The notes under the pieces are model-generated. The model was not told the DNA's origin. It saw only the letters and a program-made list of their open reading frames with translations, and made no database searches. 42,475 nt of DNA from Chromatiaceae bacterium. Lineage in GTDB: Bacteria; Pseudomonadota; Gammaproteobacteria; Chromatiales; Chromatiaceae. Positions 2,118 to 30,966 of this stretch are shown here, piece after piece (position 1 is the stretch's first letter; each line of letters opens with the position of its first letter). The position numbers were made by a program, and so were the translations under genes. The stretch lies in the NCBI GenBank assembly GCA_003562815.1, contig PWTO01000094.1, forward strand, positions 1 to 42,475, read 5' to 3'.

Positions 2118-3263
2118 TCAGCCGAAATAGAGGCGCACGTCGGCAATGTCGGGATCATCCTGAATAGCGGTACGCAAGCGGTGTTGCAGCTCCCGGGCGG
2201 CGGTGTCATCGATGAAGGTCCGCAGCGGGAAGAAAAGATCGACCGTGATCGCGCCATCGAGGTAATGCAGAAGGACGCGCTTGCGGGTCAGCGCCTCGGG
2301 AATCGGCTTCCAGTACTGGTCGAGGCGCTCGAGGACTTCGGTGCGCATCGGCAGGCCCCTGGTCGGGTACGCGCGCTCGTCGTCTTCCGGATCGATGTGG
2401 ACGGTGACATCGGACATGCGATCAATGGTCTCCATCAGCCGCTCTTGCACCAGGACGCTAATCGCGTGGCCTTCGGAGACGCTGATGTCGGCATCGACCA
2501 GCACATGGACATCGGCTGAAGTATTGCCGCCGAGGGTGCGGGTGCGCAGCATGTGAACGTCGCGCACGCCGGTGCTGCGATGGATGGTTTGGCTGATCTC
2601 GCGCAGACGCTCGGGACCGAGGCCGGTGTCGACGAGTTCGCGGGTGGCGCTGGTTCCCAGCTCCCAGGCGATCTTGGCGATCATCACCGCGACCAGCACC
2701 GAGGCGATGGCATCCAAATCGGGGAGGCCGGCGAGGGTGCCGGCAACGCCGATCATCACGATGACCGAGGAGATGGCATCGGAGCGATGGTGCCAGGCAT
2801 TAGCGAGCAGCAGATCGGAGCGCACGCGCAAGCCGTAGGCGCGGGTGTACCAAAACAGCGCTTCCTTGATCACAATCGAGAGTGCTGCGGCATAGAGCAC
2901 GATCGGTTCGGGATGCAGCAACGCCTCAGGCTCGAACAGGCGCTGGCCAGCATCCCAGATGATGCCGATGGCGACTGCCAGTAGCAGGAAGCCGAGCACG
3001 AGTGTGGCGACCGTCTCGAAGCGGCCATGGCCATAGGGATGCTCGGCATCCGGGGCCTGGCCCGCCTTGTGGCCAGCGAACCAGACCAAAATGTCCGAGA
3101 GCAGATCGGAGAAGGAATGGATGCCGTCCGCGATCAGCGCCTGCGAGTGTCCGAACCATCCGACCGAGAGCTTGAGCGCAGCGAGGAGCAGATTGGCGAG
3201 CGCGCCGACGAGGGAGGTCCGCTTGATCGCTTGGGAGCGCGCCTGGCGATGATTGGTTTCCAT
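2118..3263 (-). CDS. Cation diffusion facilitator family transporter with a second C-terminal domain
   Basis: A 381-residue inner-membrane antiporter of the CDF family, which exports divalent metals such as Zn, Fe, Cd or Co against protons. The start METNHRQARSQAIKRTS (ATG 3261-3263) opens directly into the first helix; the frame stays open far upstream but across the divergent glyQ. Metal-site motifs are visible in TM2 (HSFSD, near residue 48) and TM5 (HHRSD, near residue 155). About six hydrophobic segments lie between residues 20 and 215. A cytoplasmic ZT-dimer domain follows (about 215-300), then roughly 80 more residues that look like a degenerate second copy, ending PDIADVRLYFG. That makes it longer than the usual ~300 residues. 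The metal cannot be read from the sequence. Confidence 0.88.
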   Translation of the reverse strand: METNHRQARSQAIKRTSLVGALANLLLAALKLSVGWFGHSQALIADGIHSFSDLLSDILVWFAGHKAGQAPDAEHPYGHGRFETVATLVLGFLLLAVAIGIIWDAGQRLFEPEALLHPEPIVLYAAALSIVIKEALFWYTRAYGLRVRSDLLLANAWHHRSDAISSVIVMIGVAGTLAGLPDLDAIASVLVAVMIAKIAWELGTSATRELVDTGLGPERLREISQTIHRSTGVRDVHMLRTRTLGGNTSADVHVLVDADISVSEGHAISVLVQERLMETIDRMSDVTVHIDPEDDERAYPTRGLPMRTEVLERLDQYWKPIPEALTRKRVLLHYLDGAITVDLFFPLRTFIDDTAARELQHRLRTAIQDDPDIADVRLYFG

Positions 3264-3398
3264 AAGGGCATGCCGATGCGGTCGCTGCGGGCGCAGCCTT
3301 GATGGGTGTCGATTATAACGGCAGGGGCGCGCTGATGAGGGCGATGCTTGCGGTGGTCCAGAGGCAGCGGTGATCGCTATACTGTGTGGTTTTAGCCC

Positions 3399-24577: not shown

Positions 24578-24898
24578 GTGACCTATTACAAATATCATCT
24601 GTTCATGTGCGTCAATGAGCGCGCCGACGGCAGTCAGTGTTGTGCACAGTGTAACGCCCAGGCGTCGCGCGACTTCTTAAAGAAGCGCAGCAAGGAGTTG
24701 GAGATAGCGGGTCCGGGTGGGGTACGCATCAATACCGCCGGCTGTCTGGACCGCTGCAGCGAGGGGCCTGTGGCCGTCGTCTATCCCGACGGGATTTGGT
24801 ACACCTATGTGGACAATGAGGATCTGGAAGACATTCTGCAGTCACATTTGATCGGTGGTGAACCGGTAGCGCGGCTGCGGCTGCCGGATGCTGTCTGA
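24578..24898 (+). CDS. Thioredoxin-like [2Fe-2S] ferredoxin
   Basis: A 106-residue ferredoxin of the thioredoxin-fold family. Cysteines sit in HLFMCVNERADGSQCCAQC (N-terminal) and in the loop NTAGCLDRCSEGPVAVVYPD. The end is VDNEDLEDILQSHL. The start is probably GTG at 24578, giving MTYYKYHLF as in homologues, with GGAG nine bases upstream; the ATG at 24563 overlaps that ribosome site and is less likely. The partner is unknown. It is divergent from the GlcF-like Fe-S gene (114-base gap) and convergent with a glycosyltransferase gene. Confidence 0.85.
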   Translation: MTYYKYHLFMCVNERADGSQCCAQCNAQASRDFLKKRSKELEIAGPGGVRINTAGCLDRCSEGPVAVVYPDGIWYTYVDNEDLEDILQSHLIGGEPVARLRLPDAV

Positions 24899-27218: not shown

Positions 27219-27707
27219 CTAGACGTCTTGCGATGAAGGCGCCGAACTGTTCTGGACCAATTCCAACATCCGCCGCGCGTGCCCTTTGGGCACCACATCG
27301 TAGAGGGCATGTTGGATGATGCCGTCGCGGCCGATGACGAAGGTGGTGCGGGCGATGCCGAGTAGGCGTTGACCATGTTTCTCCTTCTCGCGGAGCACGC
27401 CATAGGCTTGGCAGACCTCGCCATCGGTATCGGCGAGCAGGCGCATGGTGAGGCCGTATTTGTCGCGAAAGGCGCCGTGACTGGCGCAGGTGTCGCGACT
27501 GATGCCGACGATCGCAGCACCACAGGCCTCGAACTCCGGCTGCAGGTCGGTGAACTCGAGCGCTTCCATGGTGCAGCCCGGGGTGTCGTCCTTCGGATAG
27601 AAGCAGAGCACGAGGTTGCGCTCGCGCAACAGGTCGACGCTCTTGACGCGCTCCATGTCGGCGTCGGGCAGGGAGAACTCGGGGGCCTGGTCACCCGCTT
27701 GTAGCAT
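27219..27707 (-). CDS. bcp: Peroxiredoxin Q / bacterioferritin comigratory protein
   Basis: A 162-residue thiol peroxidase that reduces peroxides using thioredoxin. The peroxidatic Cys is residue 45 in FYPKDDTPGCTMEALEFTDL. The resolving Cys found five residues later in E. coli BCP is a Leu here; Cys 74 (SRDTCASH) or Cys 62 may take over, as in BCP variants with a distant resolving Cys. AGGAG precedes the ATG. It is the first gene of an operon with two glycosyltransferases. Confidence 0.93.
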   Translation of the reverse strand: MLQAGDQAPEFSLPDADMERVKSVDLLRERNLVLCFYPKDDTPGCTMEALEFTDLQPEFEACGAAIVGISRDTCASHGAFRDKYGLTMRLLADTDGEVCQAYGVLREKEKHGQRLLGIARTTFVIGRDGIIQHALYDVVPKGHARRMLELVQNSSAPSSQDV

Positions 27708-27929: not shown

Positions 27930-29258
27930 TCAGTGCACCGACTCGGTATCATCGCCAGCGCGCGGCATCGGCAGCCGGATGCTGGCGATCAGGCCGCCGC
28001 CGTCGCGATTCGCAAGCTCGATCTCCATCTCATTGGCAACCGCGAGCTGGCGCGCGATCGCCAGGCCGAGCCCGGAACCGCCCGTGGTGCGGTTGCGTGA
28101 GCGCTCAAGCCGGTAGAAGGGGCGGAACACCGCCTCGCGCTCGTCGTCCGGAATACCGGGGCCCCGATCGAGCACGAACAACGCTGGCGTCTGGTGGCGG
28201 CAATCGAGTCGGATCTCGACGGTGCCATGGCTGTAGCGCAATGCGTTTTCGATCAGGTTGCCGAGCACACGCCTGAGTGCCTGCGCGTTGACCGAGTGAA
28301 TACAGCGCCCGAGCGGGCGCCAAAGGATGCGAGGTTGGCTGCCGACCACCTCGCCGATGAGCTGTGCCAGGTTTTCCGGGTGGCGCTCGCCGGCGCCCAA
28401 GGTGCCGCCAAGCTCGACGGCCTGACCGATCTGCGCGCTCATCTCCTCGATATCGCGTTGCATGCGGGCACTGAGTGCGGGGTCGGTCTCCTCGGGCAGC
28501 ATCTCGAGCGCGAGCCGCAGCCGGGTCAGCGGCGTGCGCAGATCATGCGAAATGCCCGCGAGAAGCACGGTGCGGTCGGCCAGCAGCTCTCGTACCTGCT
28601 GACTGGTCTCGTTGAACTGGCGCGCCAGATTGGCCAGCTCGCGCGGGCCGCTTTCGGCCAGGGGCTGTGGCGATCGGCCCTTGGCGACCTCTTCGGCGGC
28701 CTGCGAAAGTCGCGTCAGCGGAGCGGTGACGCGTCTGGCCAGGATGGTGGCGGTGAGCAGCACCAGCAAGACGGCGAGCGTGCAGATGACGACCACGCCG
28801 ATCATCGGTCGGGTGCCGATGCGATCGATGGGAATACCGGCCCAGACGGTACCCGAAGCGGTGTCCAGATCGACCCAGAACCAACGACGACCGTCGATCA
28901 GGTTGCTCTGCATGCGCACCGGTTGCTCCAACCGTCGGCTCAGCGCCTGGCTCAAGCGCACGACATAAGGATAGAAATAGTCGTCGAGCCCTTGCGGCGG
29001 TGCCGAGCCGATCAGCAGCCGCACCTGGTACTCATCGAGCAGTTTGGCTTGATAGTCCTGTTGCGCCGGTTCCGGGAGCAGGGTCAGGGTGCGCGCGGAG
29101 AGTTCCATGAAGGCGGCCAGATCGGCCGTGGAGCGCTGCACGACCGGGTAGAGCACGTAGTAGAGCGCGGAGCCGAAGGTGATCAGCGCGAAGCTGCCGA
29201 AGCTCAACACCAGCGTCAGCAGCACGCGGGTGAAGAGTGAGCCGGGCCGCGAGCGCAT
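27930..29258 (-). CDS. envZ: Osmosensor-type histidine kinase EnvZ
   Basis: A 442-residue inner-membrane sensor kinase. TM1 is at about residues 9-35, followed by a periplasmic domain of about 110 residues and TM2 at about 145-170. A HAMP linker contains RRVTAPLTRLSQAAEEVAKG. The H-box is LLAGISHDLRTPLTRLRLAL, the EnvZ form. N, G1 and G2 boxes appear as NLIENALRYS, DRGPGIPD and GGSGLGLAI. The ATG at 29256-29258 is 17 bases after the ompR stop; the longer open frame includes ompR sequence. It phosphorylates the OmpR encoded upstream. The signal sensed is not visible. Confidence 0.93.
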   Translation of the reverse strand: MRSRPGSLFTRVLLTLVLSFGSFALITFGSALYYVLYPVVQRSTADLAAFMELSARTLTLLPEPAQQDYQAKLLDEYQVRLLIGSAPPQGLDDYFYPYVVRLSQALSRRLEQPVRMQSNLIDGRRWFWVDLDTASGTVWAGIPIDRIGTRPMIGVVVICTLAVLLVLLTATILARRVTAPLTRLSQAAEEVAKGRSPQPLAESGPRELANLARQFNETSQQVRELLADRTVLLAGISHDLRTPLTRLRLALEMLPEETDPALSARMQRDIEEMSAQIGQAVELGGTLGAGERHPENLAQLIGEVVGSQPRILWRPLGRCIHSVNAQALRRVLGNLIENALRYSHGTVEIRLDCRHQTPALFVLDRGPGIPDDEREAVFRPFYRLERSRNRTTGGSGLGLAIARQLAVANEMEIELANRDGGGLIASIRLPMPRAGDDTESVH

Positions 29259-29275
29259 GCGGGTCGTGTCAGGGC

Positions 29276-29998
29276 TCAGATTTCGCCAGCCGGCGTGAAG
29301 ATGTAACCGCGCCCCCACACAGTGCGGATATAGCAGGGGGCCTTCTTATCCGGCTCGATCTTGGCGCGCAGACGGGCGACTTGCACATCGACACTGCGAT
29401 CGAACGGATTGCGCTCGTAGCCCTTGAGCAGATCGAGCAAGCGATCGCGGTCGAGCACCCGATTGGGATGCTCGACGAAGATGCGCAAGAGATCGAATTC
29501 ACTGCCGGTGAGGGCCACGCTCTCGCCGTCGCGGGTCAGCCGGCGGCTGGCCAGCTCGAGGCGATAGGGTCCAAAGCTGACCTGGCTGGCGCCCGCGCCA
29601 TCGCTGCCGTTGTGCGCGGGGCGGCGCAACACGGCGCGAATGCGCGCGAGCAGCTCGCGCGGGTTGAAGGGCTTGGCCAGGTAGTCATCGGCGCCGACCT
29701 CGAGGCCCACGATGCGATCGATCTCATCGCCGCGCGCCGAGAGCATGATAATCGGCACCTGGGTCTTTTGACGCAAGCGCCGGGCGAGGGTCAGGCCATC
29801 GTCGCCGGGGAGCATCAGGTCGAGGATGATGATGTCCGGCTCGCGCTCGCCGAGCCACGCGAACATGGCGACGCCATCTGACACACCGCTGACCTTGAAG
29901 CCTTCGCGCTGCAGATAGTCCTGAAGCAATTCGCGCAGCGAGGCATCGTCGTCCACGACGAGTACCTGCGTCTTCGCGCTTAGGTCGTCGCTGTTCAT
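29276..29998 (-). CDS. ompR: Response regulator OmpR
   Basis: A 240-residue two-domain regulator. The receiver domain has the acidic pair VVDDDASLRELLQ, the phospho-acceptor Asp in DIIILDLMLPGDDG and the Lys in DYLAKPFNPREL. The C-terminal winged helix has LTGSEFDLLRIFVEHPNRVL and ends with YIRTVWGRGYIFTPAG. I choose the ATG at 29996-29998; a TTG two codons earlier is possible. It forms an operon with envZ. A palindrome of GTAACA half-sites lies about 30 bases upstream and suggests autoregulation. Confidence 0.95.
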   Translation of the reverse strand: MNSDDLSAKTQVLVVDDDASLRELLQDYLQREGFKVSGVSDGVAMFAWLGEREPDIIILDLMLPGDDGLTLARRLRQKTQVPIIMLSARGDEIDRIVGLEVGADDYLAKPFNPRELLARIRAVLRRPAHNGSDGAGASQVSFGPYRLELASRRLTRDGESVALTGSEFDLLRIFVEHPNRVLDRDRLLDLLKGYERNPFDRSVDVQVARLRAKIEPDKKAPCYIRTVWGRGYIFTPAGEI

Positions 29999-30029: not shown

Positions 30030-30046
30030 TGTTACACACTGTAACA
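30030..30046. promoter_or_regulatory. Palindromic operator at the ompR promoter
   Basis: TGTTACACACTGTAACA is a perfect inverted repeat (7-base arms, 3-base spacer). GTAACA is the core of OmpR half-sites. The minus-strand hexamer TATACT at 30052-30057 is a fair -10 box that would start ompR transcription near 30045, inside this element. I infer autoregulation by OmpR. Confidence 0.5.
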
Positions 30047-30198
30047 GCATAAGTATATGCTGAAATACGTTGGGCGTCGGCTGCGGCGATACTCACTGCT
30101 CAGTGATGAGCGAATCAGTACGCATCACACCTGTTTCTGGGCAGCAAGCCTCTTCGGCCGCCTCGACGGAACCCCTCCGTTGCGGCGGCCGTTTTTTT
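30045..30198 (+). ncRNA. Candidate small RNA or attenuated leader
   Basis: This is a non-coding stretch with three elements in a row on the plus strand: an inverted repeat CAGCATA-AGTA-TATGCTG (30045-30062), a second TCACTG-CT-CAGTGA (about 30093-30106), and a strong intrinsic terminator (30155-30198). A possible promoter has TTGTTA at 30029 and AGTATA 17 bases later. No plus-strand gene lies upstream for more than 5 kb, so the terminator must serve a short transcript starting here. It may be an independent small RNA or a terminated leader of the SOUL gene starting at 30322. No known RNA family was recognised. The remaining 120 bases to the SOUL gene hold nothing I can identify. Confidence 0.4.
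30155..30198 (+). terminator. Rho-independent terminator, plus strand
   Basis: CGGCCGCC pairs with GGCGGCCG, with an inner ACGG/CCGT stem and a seven-base loop, followed at once by seven T. There is no matching A-run on the other side, so it acts on plus-strand transcripts only. Confidence 0.85.
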
Positions 30199-30321
30199 GT
30201 CTCGCGCACCCGAGCACCAAGTGCGTGGCCCGCGCCGGTTTGACGGTGGACAACGCACGCGTGCGCTCGGCATGGTTGAATCGCCGGTCAGCTCGTTGAC
30301 AGACCGGTTTTGAAGCTTGAC

Positions 30322-30966
30322 ATGAAACGCAAAGCGCTGATCGCGATCGCGGCCCTGATCCCGCTGGTGATGATAGCCATTGCGCTCGTCTCATTGCCAG
30401 AGCCCGATTTCGAGGTCGTCGCCGAGGGCGATGGGTTCGAGCTGCGCCGCTATCCCCCCTTCAATGTCGCCCAGGTCCAAGTCAGCGCTGACTTCGAGCA
30501 CGCTAGCAAGCGCGCCTTCGAGCCTCTTGTCGGTTACATCCAGGGTGGAAACCGTGGAGGGCGCAACCTGCCGATGCTGGCGCCTGTCAATCAACAGCCG
30601 CTGGATGAGGCGCCTGCATCTGCGCTCACAGCGACAGCGGCGGAGCAAGCCTGGCGAGTCCAGTTCGTGATGCCGAAGGAATATTCGCTGTCTTATCTGC
30701 CGGCGCCGGCCGACGAGCGGGTCTCGCTACAGCGGCTGCCGACACGACTGCTGGCTGTCCACCGCTATCGTGGCGGTTGGGGCGAAGCGCGTTACCGTGA
30801 GCAGGAGGCCGCACTTTTAGAGGCGCTCGCGGCGAGCGGCGCAACAATCATCGGCGCGCCGATCTTCGCGCGCTACAATGCCCCCTTCGTGCCTGGGTTC
30901 TTGCGCCGCAATGAGGTCTTGGTCGAGGTCGCCGATGATAGATCGGCAGCGTTCGCACGCGACTGA
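30322..30966 (+). CDS. SOUL heme-binding family protein, membrane-anchored
   Basis: A 214-residue protein with an N-terminal hydrophobic anchor or signal (residues 5-26, KALIAIAALIPLVMIAIAL) and a SOUL domain. Family features are FEVVAEGDGFELRRYPPFNV, QFVMPKEYSLSYLPAP and FARYNAPFVPGFLRRNEVLV at the end. The ATG at 30322 is chosen because it starts the anchor directly. It should be periplasmic or membrane-attached. Heme binding is known for eukaryotic members; the bacterial role is unsettled. An alpha/beta hydrolase gene follows 85 bases later. Confidence 0.85.
   Translation: MKRKALIAIAALIPLVMIAIALVSLPEPDFEVVAEGDGFELRRYPPFNVAQVQVSADFEHASKRAFEPLVGYIQGGNRGGRNLPMLAPVNQQPLDEAPASALTATAAEQAWRVQFVMPKEYSLSYLPAPADERVSLQRLPTRLLAVHRYRGGWGEARYREQEAALLEALAASGATIIGAPIFARYNAPFVPGFLRRNEVLVEVADDRSAAFARD

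Follow-up and report, generated by a model that had tools for sequence, protein, structure and literature searches.

The gap between ompR and the SOUL gene in the window, a 42,475-nucleotide stretch of DNA from a Chromatiaceae bacterium to which all positions refer, probably harbors a conserved small RNA (sRNA) gene that is divergent from ompR-envZ, linked to OmpR, likely to act in trans, and dual-function in most relatives. An OmpR-linked sRNA had been proposed for this gap in a sequence-only reading; the comparison with related genomes supports the proposal, because both the element and a promoter with OmpR-type half-sites are conserved, ompR adjoins 52 of 66 loci, and the RNA persists where the accompanying small open reading frame (ORF) is gone. 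Transcription of the RNA and its control by OmpR are what we infer from this arrangement. OmpR most likely controls the promoter through two half-sites spaced by 10 bp, and the near-invariant GCAGCAAGC in front of a terminator with a long U-tail corresponds to the typical architecture of base-pairing sRNAs, suggesting that the RNA most likely regulates mRNAs in trans. In most relatives, the RNA would also encode a membrane protein of 36–58 residues, so that it could be classed either as dual-function or as an mRNA that carries an sRNA at its 3' end; the window has lost this ORF by deletion, leaving only the predicted ~98-nt RNA form.

Table 1 Features of the ompR–SOUL region and the adjoining genes in the window
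Feature	Position	Strand	Remarks
bcp-like peroxiredoxin gene	27219–27707	-	Behind ompR/envZ
envZ-like sensor kinase gene	27930–29318	-	Start uncertain; best NCBIfam model EnvZ, E 6.8e-74, under cut-off
ompR, response regulator gene	29276–29998	-	Divergent; Pfam Response_reg and Trans_reg_C
OmpR-type half-sites GTTACA-N4-GTAACA	30031–30046		GTTACACACTGTAACA; 10-bp spacing; aligned with half-sites of relatives
GAAATA box, about the -35 region	30062–30067	+	Fixed distance to half-sites and -10
Predicted -10 hexamer GATACT	30088–30093	+	20 nt past GAAATA
Predicted sRNA, ~98 nt	30100–30198	+	Start inferred from -10, end from T-run
Probable scar of deleted ORF, ~15 nt	30103–30117	+	GTGATGAGCGAATCA versus GTGATGAGGGGATCA in the ORF of G003, compared by eye
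Conserved 3' RNA element	30131–30201	+	Match of covariance model R1
Presumed seed GGCAGCAAGCC	30140–30150	+	Contains near-invariant GCAGCAAGC
Intrinsic terminator	30155–30198	+	Stem CGGCCGCC (30155–30162) / GGCGGCCG (30184–30191), inner stem, T7 (30192–30198); stem pairs covary

The product of ompR finds its best NCBIfam model in OmpR (E = 1.6e-86; 289.6 bits, the model cut-off of 331 not being reached). The next credible gene on the plus strand is the SOUL gene, which starts at about position 30322, ~125 nt past the terminator. Upstream of the terminator, no credible plus-strand gene lies closer than one that ends at 24898 according to the ORF list, read by eye, and the longer plus-strand frames in between resemble shadows of minus-strand genes; the earlier statement that more than 5 kb upstream are free of plus-strand genes is thus borne out. 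An 80-codon plus-strand frame running across the terminator (30057–30299) was taken as a chance occurrence.

The two arms of the GC-rich terminator stem pair perfectly over 8 bp and, together with the inner stem and the run of seven T residues that follows, confirm the strong plus-strand intrinsic terminator recognized before. A simple terminator scan of the window did not list it, since the rules of the scan (uninterrupted stem, loop of 3–8) are unfit for an interrupted stem. Folding of positions 30100–30198 alone gave a minimum free energy of -42.6 kcal/mol (z = -4.0; none of 200 shuffled sequences as low), and this fold does contain the terminator. Both perfect inverted repeats that had been noted before the terminator exist (CAGCATA/TATGCTG, 30045–30051/30056–30062, and TCACTG/CAGTGA, 30093–30098/30101–30106), but they represent promoter DNA or chance rather than RNA hairpins, since the former sits within conserved promoter DNA, and the latter straddles the predicted start and is missing from the closest relative.

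A DNA search of 55 genomes, comprising the window's own and those of relatives, matched the region in five of the seven other genomes of the genus, in two blocks each, and found no match outside the genus. In these five relatives, a longer distance separates the two blocks, which enclose an ORF of 51–55 codons; this ORF is preceded by a Shine-Dalgarno-like ACGGAGGTAG and codes for a protein of the pattern M[CS]FDALT...GGFLxGLV... with one hydrophobic span. The conserved stretch of the region was also present in six stretches of named records, originating from three Halochromatium species (four stretches), Lamprobacter modestohalophilus, and a metagenome-assembled genome, which makes it most likely that the window belongs to Halochromatium, a genus of the Chromatiaceae, or to a near relative. 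When loci were fetched by the ORF alone, GCAGCAAGC or GGTAGCAAGC plus a terminator followed the ORF in 28 of 30 cases, the exceptions being L038 and L039. From 29 aligned sequences (the window, locus L012, and 27 of those 28 loci), the covariance model R1 was built, which describes the last ~72 nt of the locus including the terminator.

R1 matched 70 of 194 family genomes (E ≤ 0.01, down to 3.6e-21), distributed over 20 of 61 genera, with a single match per genome in 60 of the 70. The search for conservation and covariation in relatives, suggested as a check by the sequence-only reading, retrieved the element in about one third of the family genomes, and its stem covaries. At the order level, the 70 matching genomes (of 210) all belong to the family, and at the class level there were matches in two of 274 genomes, i.e. 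the window's own and a weak one at E = 8e-4. No match was obtained in 124 of the 194 family genomes, among them G007 of the window's genus (89% complete), in searches whose filters lose weak matches. The E value of 2.7e-17 for the window element in its own genome follows by construction, the window being among the 29 model sequences. An Rfam scan of the window gave no match at the gathering score; scanning six loci yielded one match up to E = 1, far below the cut-off and outside the element. All counts over 66 loci given here refer to one locus per genome with E = 1.4e-8 or better (28 in the model, 38 not); G082, G086, G109 and G149 (E = 1.9e-4 or weaker) and the second copies L012, L111–L117 and L119 were left out.

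GCAGCAAGC directly precedes the terminator, outside its hairpin. Its columns contain 1.5–2.0 bits each in the 66 loci, as compared to 0.4 or less at positions -25 to -10, an invariance which is in part due to selection, because loci with the motif served to seed the model. In alignment A4, which was fitted to the structure of the model and hence favors pairing, 99% of the cells are paired in the terminator stem, and four of its six pairs show two-sided changes. The whole structure shows 27 cells with two-sided changes versus 7.2 in shuffled alignments (none of 500 as high); five pairs covary, a number that 41 of 500 shuffles also attained. Terminator function alone would account for the stem, but would leave the near-invariant linear stretch outside the stem unexplained. 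The hairpin GGC-AGCAA-GCC was dismissed as a conserved RNA structure and is read as linear conservation, because its two inner pairs, which hold in all counted cells, hardly vary, and the outer pair holds in 73.8%.

By the rule of our script, a GAAATA or GAAATG box is present in 51 of the 66 loci and absent from 15. In the 51 loci the -10 hexamer lies at a fixed distance of 20 nt past the box, with A at its second and T at its last position in 92% each. Two GNNACA half-sites 10 bp apart precede the box. A sigma-70 consensus scan of the window found no promoter. At the sequence level, GTTACA-N4-GTAACA corresponds to the OmpR-type site expected of an OmpR-regulated sRNA promoter; for comparison, the repeat recognized by E. 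coli OmpR is given as GTTACATTTTGTTACAT in PMC5438342, and a predicted OmpR box of Acidithiobacillus caldus as GTTACAACTTGTTACATAAG in PMC9861516.

Both half-sites occur in 46 of the 52 ompR-adjacent loci versus one of the 14 others (Fisher p = 1.7e-8, kinship ignored), and at least one half-site in 51 of 52 versus two of 14, again ignoring kinship; among these entries, the missing half-site of L028 is an artefact of the script, as its promoter lies beyond the 700-nt limit (half-site at -205 from the ORF), and in L027, L092 and the four loci of genus g26 the promoter itself may have been missed. G011 retains both half-sites without a clear ompR, and G189 has GTTATA and GTTAAA where G165 and G198 carry GTTACA twice, TATTAG and GAAATA being unchanged. 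The association of the half-sites with ompR fits an action of OmpR at this position, on the promoter of the RNA, on that of ompR, or on both. The half-sites could also serve the promoter of ompR itself, which would likewise fit their absence where ompR is gone.

In the 14 genomes whose element is not adjacent to ompR, a genome-wide search with the OmpR protein of the window did not find an ompR of the neighbor type elsewhere. G004 and G025 gave nothing at E = 1e-45, and G117, G202 (88% complete) and G151 nothing at 1e-58; the best proteins showed 40–44% identity in the four g26 genomes and 50% in G011, and G189, G132, G062 and G178 contain only proteins of 58–60% identity (and weaker ones). 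The latter resemble the second such protein of G165, which also possesses an adjacent OmpR with 71%. All of nine control genomes with adjacent ompR returned it, at 65–75%; percent identity by itself is not enough to tell the two kinds of OmpR apart, since the adjacent protein of G083 shows 57%. The bcp-like gene adjoins the RNA element in several genomes without ompR: in nine loci (L080, L083–L085, L087, L091, L107, L109 and L030), a neighbor-type ompR is lacking, the element is kept, and the bcp-like gene lies alongside, as though the segment containing ompR-envZ had been lost. The losses of ompR and ORF do not go together: of the 14 loci without adjacent ompR, seven have the ORF and seven do not.

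Of the 66 loci, 52 (51 identified by pattern, one by profile) include an ORF of 36–58 codons that would encode a small membrane protein, so that a conserved ORF within the same RNA, a hallmark of dual-function RNAs, is found in these relatives and not in the window. With a protein profile from five sequences, matches were obtained in 63 of 194 family genomes (E ≤ 0.05; 21 of 61 genera), the weakest being doubtful, and none in the genome of the window; a profile from 22 sequences gave weak matches in two of 274 genomes across the class. NCBIfam returned no match for two members of the protein family, nor did Pfam for one of these, and when viral contigs were searched for the small protein, none of 37 pattern matches was confirmed. 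Differences within genera are distributed over codon positions 1, 2 and 3 as 553:210:1362, and 1020 synonymous versus 657 non-synonymous codon differences were counted in the first 30 codons of 129 within-genus pairs, indicating that the ORF is under purifying selection.

The distance between promoter and element is 90 nt in the window versus 298 nt in its closest relative, G003, i.e. the window is ~208 nt shorter net, and the probable scar resembles the ORF of G003 towards its 3' end. In the window the terminator would end a short RNA only, while the predicted transcript of most relatives also holds the small ORF that was deleted here. The absence of the ORF from the window is a loss, as its place in the OmpR tree is next to an ORF-bearing relative, inside a group of its genus that carries the ORF; deeper in this tree, gain and loss of the ORF cannot be told apart. 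Besides the window, ORF-less loci (14 of 66) occur in G004, G083, G147, G195, G027, G095, G125, G178, G062 and four genomes of g26, the G062 locus (L092) being ORF-less only formally, as it has no recognizable promoter; a weaker second copy in G062, L119, carries an ORF. Both states are found in five genera (g1, g21, g23, g26 and g56). A quick OmpR tree with 52 rows, seven of them ORF-less, requires at least five changes of state, two of which are forced by well-supported branches; the mean after shuffling was 6.7, and 12 of 500 shuffles were as low as five, so that the ORF-less label is somewhat clustered.

Alternatively, the terminator might be a leftover of a small-membrane-protein gene and the RNA functionless, the window representing a dead remnant. 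The net loss of ~208 nt, the probable scar and the purifying selection on the ORF agree with such decay, which we nevertheless consider rather unlikely: thirteen other loci without ORF retain the element, nine ORF-less loci including that of the window have a recognizable promoter, GCAGCAAGC is kept outside the hairpin in ORF-less loci too, and in one genus an additional copy without ORF, again with GCAGCAAGC in front of a terminator, is present in six genomes. Retention in the 14 loci without ORF also speaks against a 3' element that serves only to stabilize or process the small-protein mRNA; its place behind the ORF, as seen in 52 of the 66 loci, would suit this role, but ORF paralogs (L038, L039) exist without an element seen behind them, making it an improbable explanation. 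Taken by themselves, the ORF-bearing copies could be no more than mRNAs for the small protein whose 3' end is conserved.

The sequence-only reading had alternatively suggested a leader RNA controlling the SOUL gene by attenuation, in accordance with the location of the terminator between promoter and plus-strand SOUL gene, ~125 nt before the start of the latter. This idea has become very hard to sustain, since a SOUL gene is near only two of the 66 elements, those of the window and its closest relative, with at least 0.6 kb downstream covered per locus. The orientation of the downstream gene (27 on the same strand, 29 opposite, 10 undetermined) was discarded as a test for leaders because the method selected a frame on the antisense strand in the window itself.

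As to possible targets of the putative trans-acting sRNA, complement searches in eight genomes of the genus did not reveal a convincing candidate close to a start codon. Exact 11-mer complements gave more matches than the control in these genomes, and among 30 loci inspected, the placeable ones were mostly inside reading frames. A complement followed by ATG was too common to rank among the matches listed (the control, the pattern read backwards, has a different codon make-up), and GCTTGCTGC did not occur on either strand in 122 kb of upstream neighborhood. The ompR mRNA was rejected as a target, with a duplex value of -35.5 versus a mean of -36.2 for shuffled sRNA, as was a match common to the genomes of the window and G003 (L148, L149), which lies antisense in a recombinase-like frame (by eye).

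In the dual-function sRNA SgrS/SgrT, a single transcript carries a small ORF together with a conserved RNA portion. The same holds for VcdRP of Vibrio cholerae (PMC8672173). The locus presented here differs from both in its protein, in the absence of the ORF from several lineages, and in that base-pairing is putative. With OmrA and OmrB, the OmpR-activated sRNAs of Enterobacterales, which feed back on ompR-envZ according to a review (PMC12692685), it has in common the OmpR-linked promoter, the short RNA and the intrinsic terminator; unlike these, it has no Rfam match at the gathering score, is located divergently beside ompR, has its conserved stretch next to the terminator, often contains an ORF, and yielded no pairing with ompR. 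The small protein resembles MzrA, a membrane protein of 127 residues linked to EnvZ/OmpR (PMC2727453), in its single span and its EnvZ/OmpR linkage, but it is shorter (36–58 residues), and two members lack Pfam/NCBIfam matches as specified above; from its position beside envZ, one might guess at an MzrA-like role. Among the papers listed in searches of the open-access literature on small RNAs of Allochromatium vinosum, Chromatiaceae and purple sulfur bacteria, no such RNA appeared, and those listed for a loose query on Halochromatium, Lamprobacter, sRNA and OmpR concerned other organisms throughout.

For the EnvZ-OmpR system of a group of purple sulfur bacteria and relatives, two candidate components are now at hand, an sRNA and a small membrane protein, and the natural losses, of the ORF alone or of ompR plus its sites, provide ready-made comparisons of the role of each half of a dual-function RNA. 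Going further, one may speculate that an OmpR-controlled transcript yields both a tiny membrane protein tuning EnvZ and a base-pairing 3' sRNA, that lineages repeatedly drop the protein half, or ompR and its sites, and keep the RNA half, and that the seed was copied elsewhere in one genus, in some genomes beside another response regulator; we regard this scenario as tentative.

The genus in question is g23, six genomes of which contain a weaker second element without ORF, consisting of GCAGCAAGCAATT and then a terminator (L111–L116). A response-regulator-like frame lies directly beside L112, L115 and L116 and ~1 kb away in L113 (by eye), and CTTTACAGATCTTTAC is located upstream of the second copy in L111–L113. 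Possibly, these copies represent a sister sRNA under another two-component system. L038 and L039 (in G151 and G132) are paralogous 32-codon ORFs with MCFDALTITGIIAGILSGGFLIALVAGNDTGS; no RNA element was seen in the 220 nt behind them, and there was no second R1 match in either genome. In Halochromatium glycolicum, L012/L015 (G001:C53, about 2640–3317) comprises a second ORF copy with an in-frame TAG and a second element, and a repeated stretch beside this element resembles the end of a mobile element. A diverged, weakly scoring version, GCAGCAGCCTGCC followed by a terminator, with TTAGC...GAAATACT upstream, is found in G082 (L118), where it adjoins response-regulator-like and bcp-like frames.
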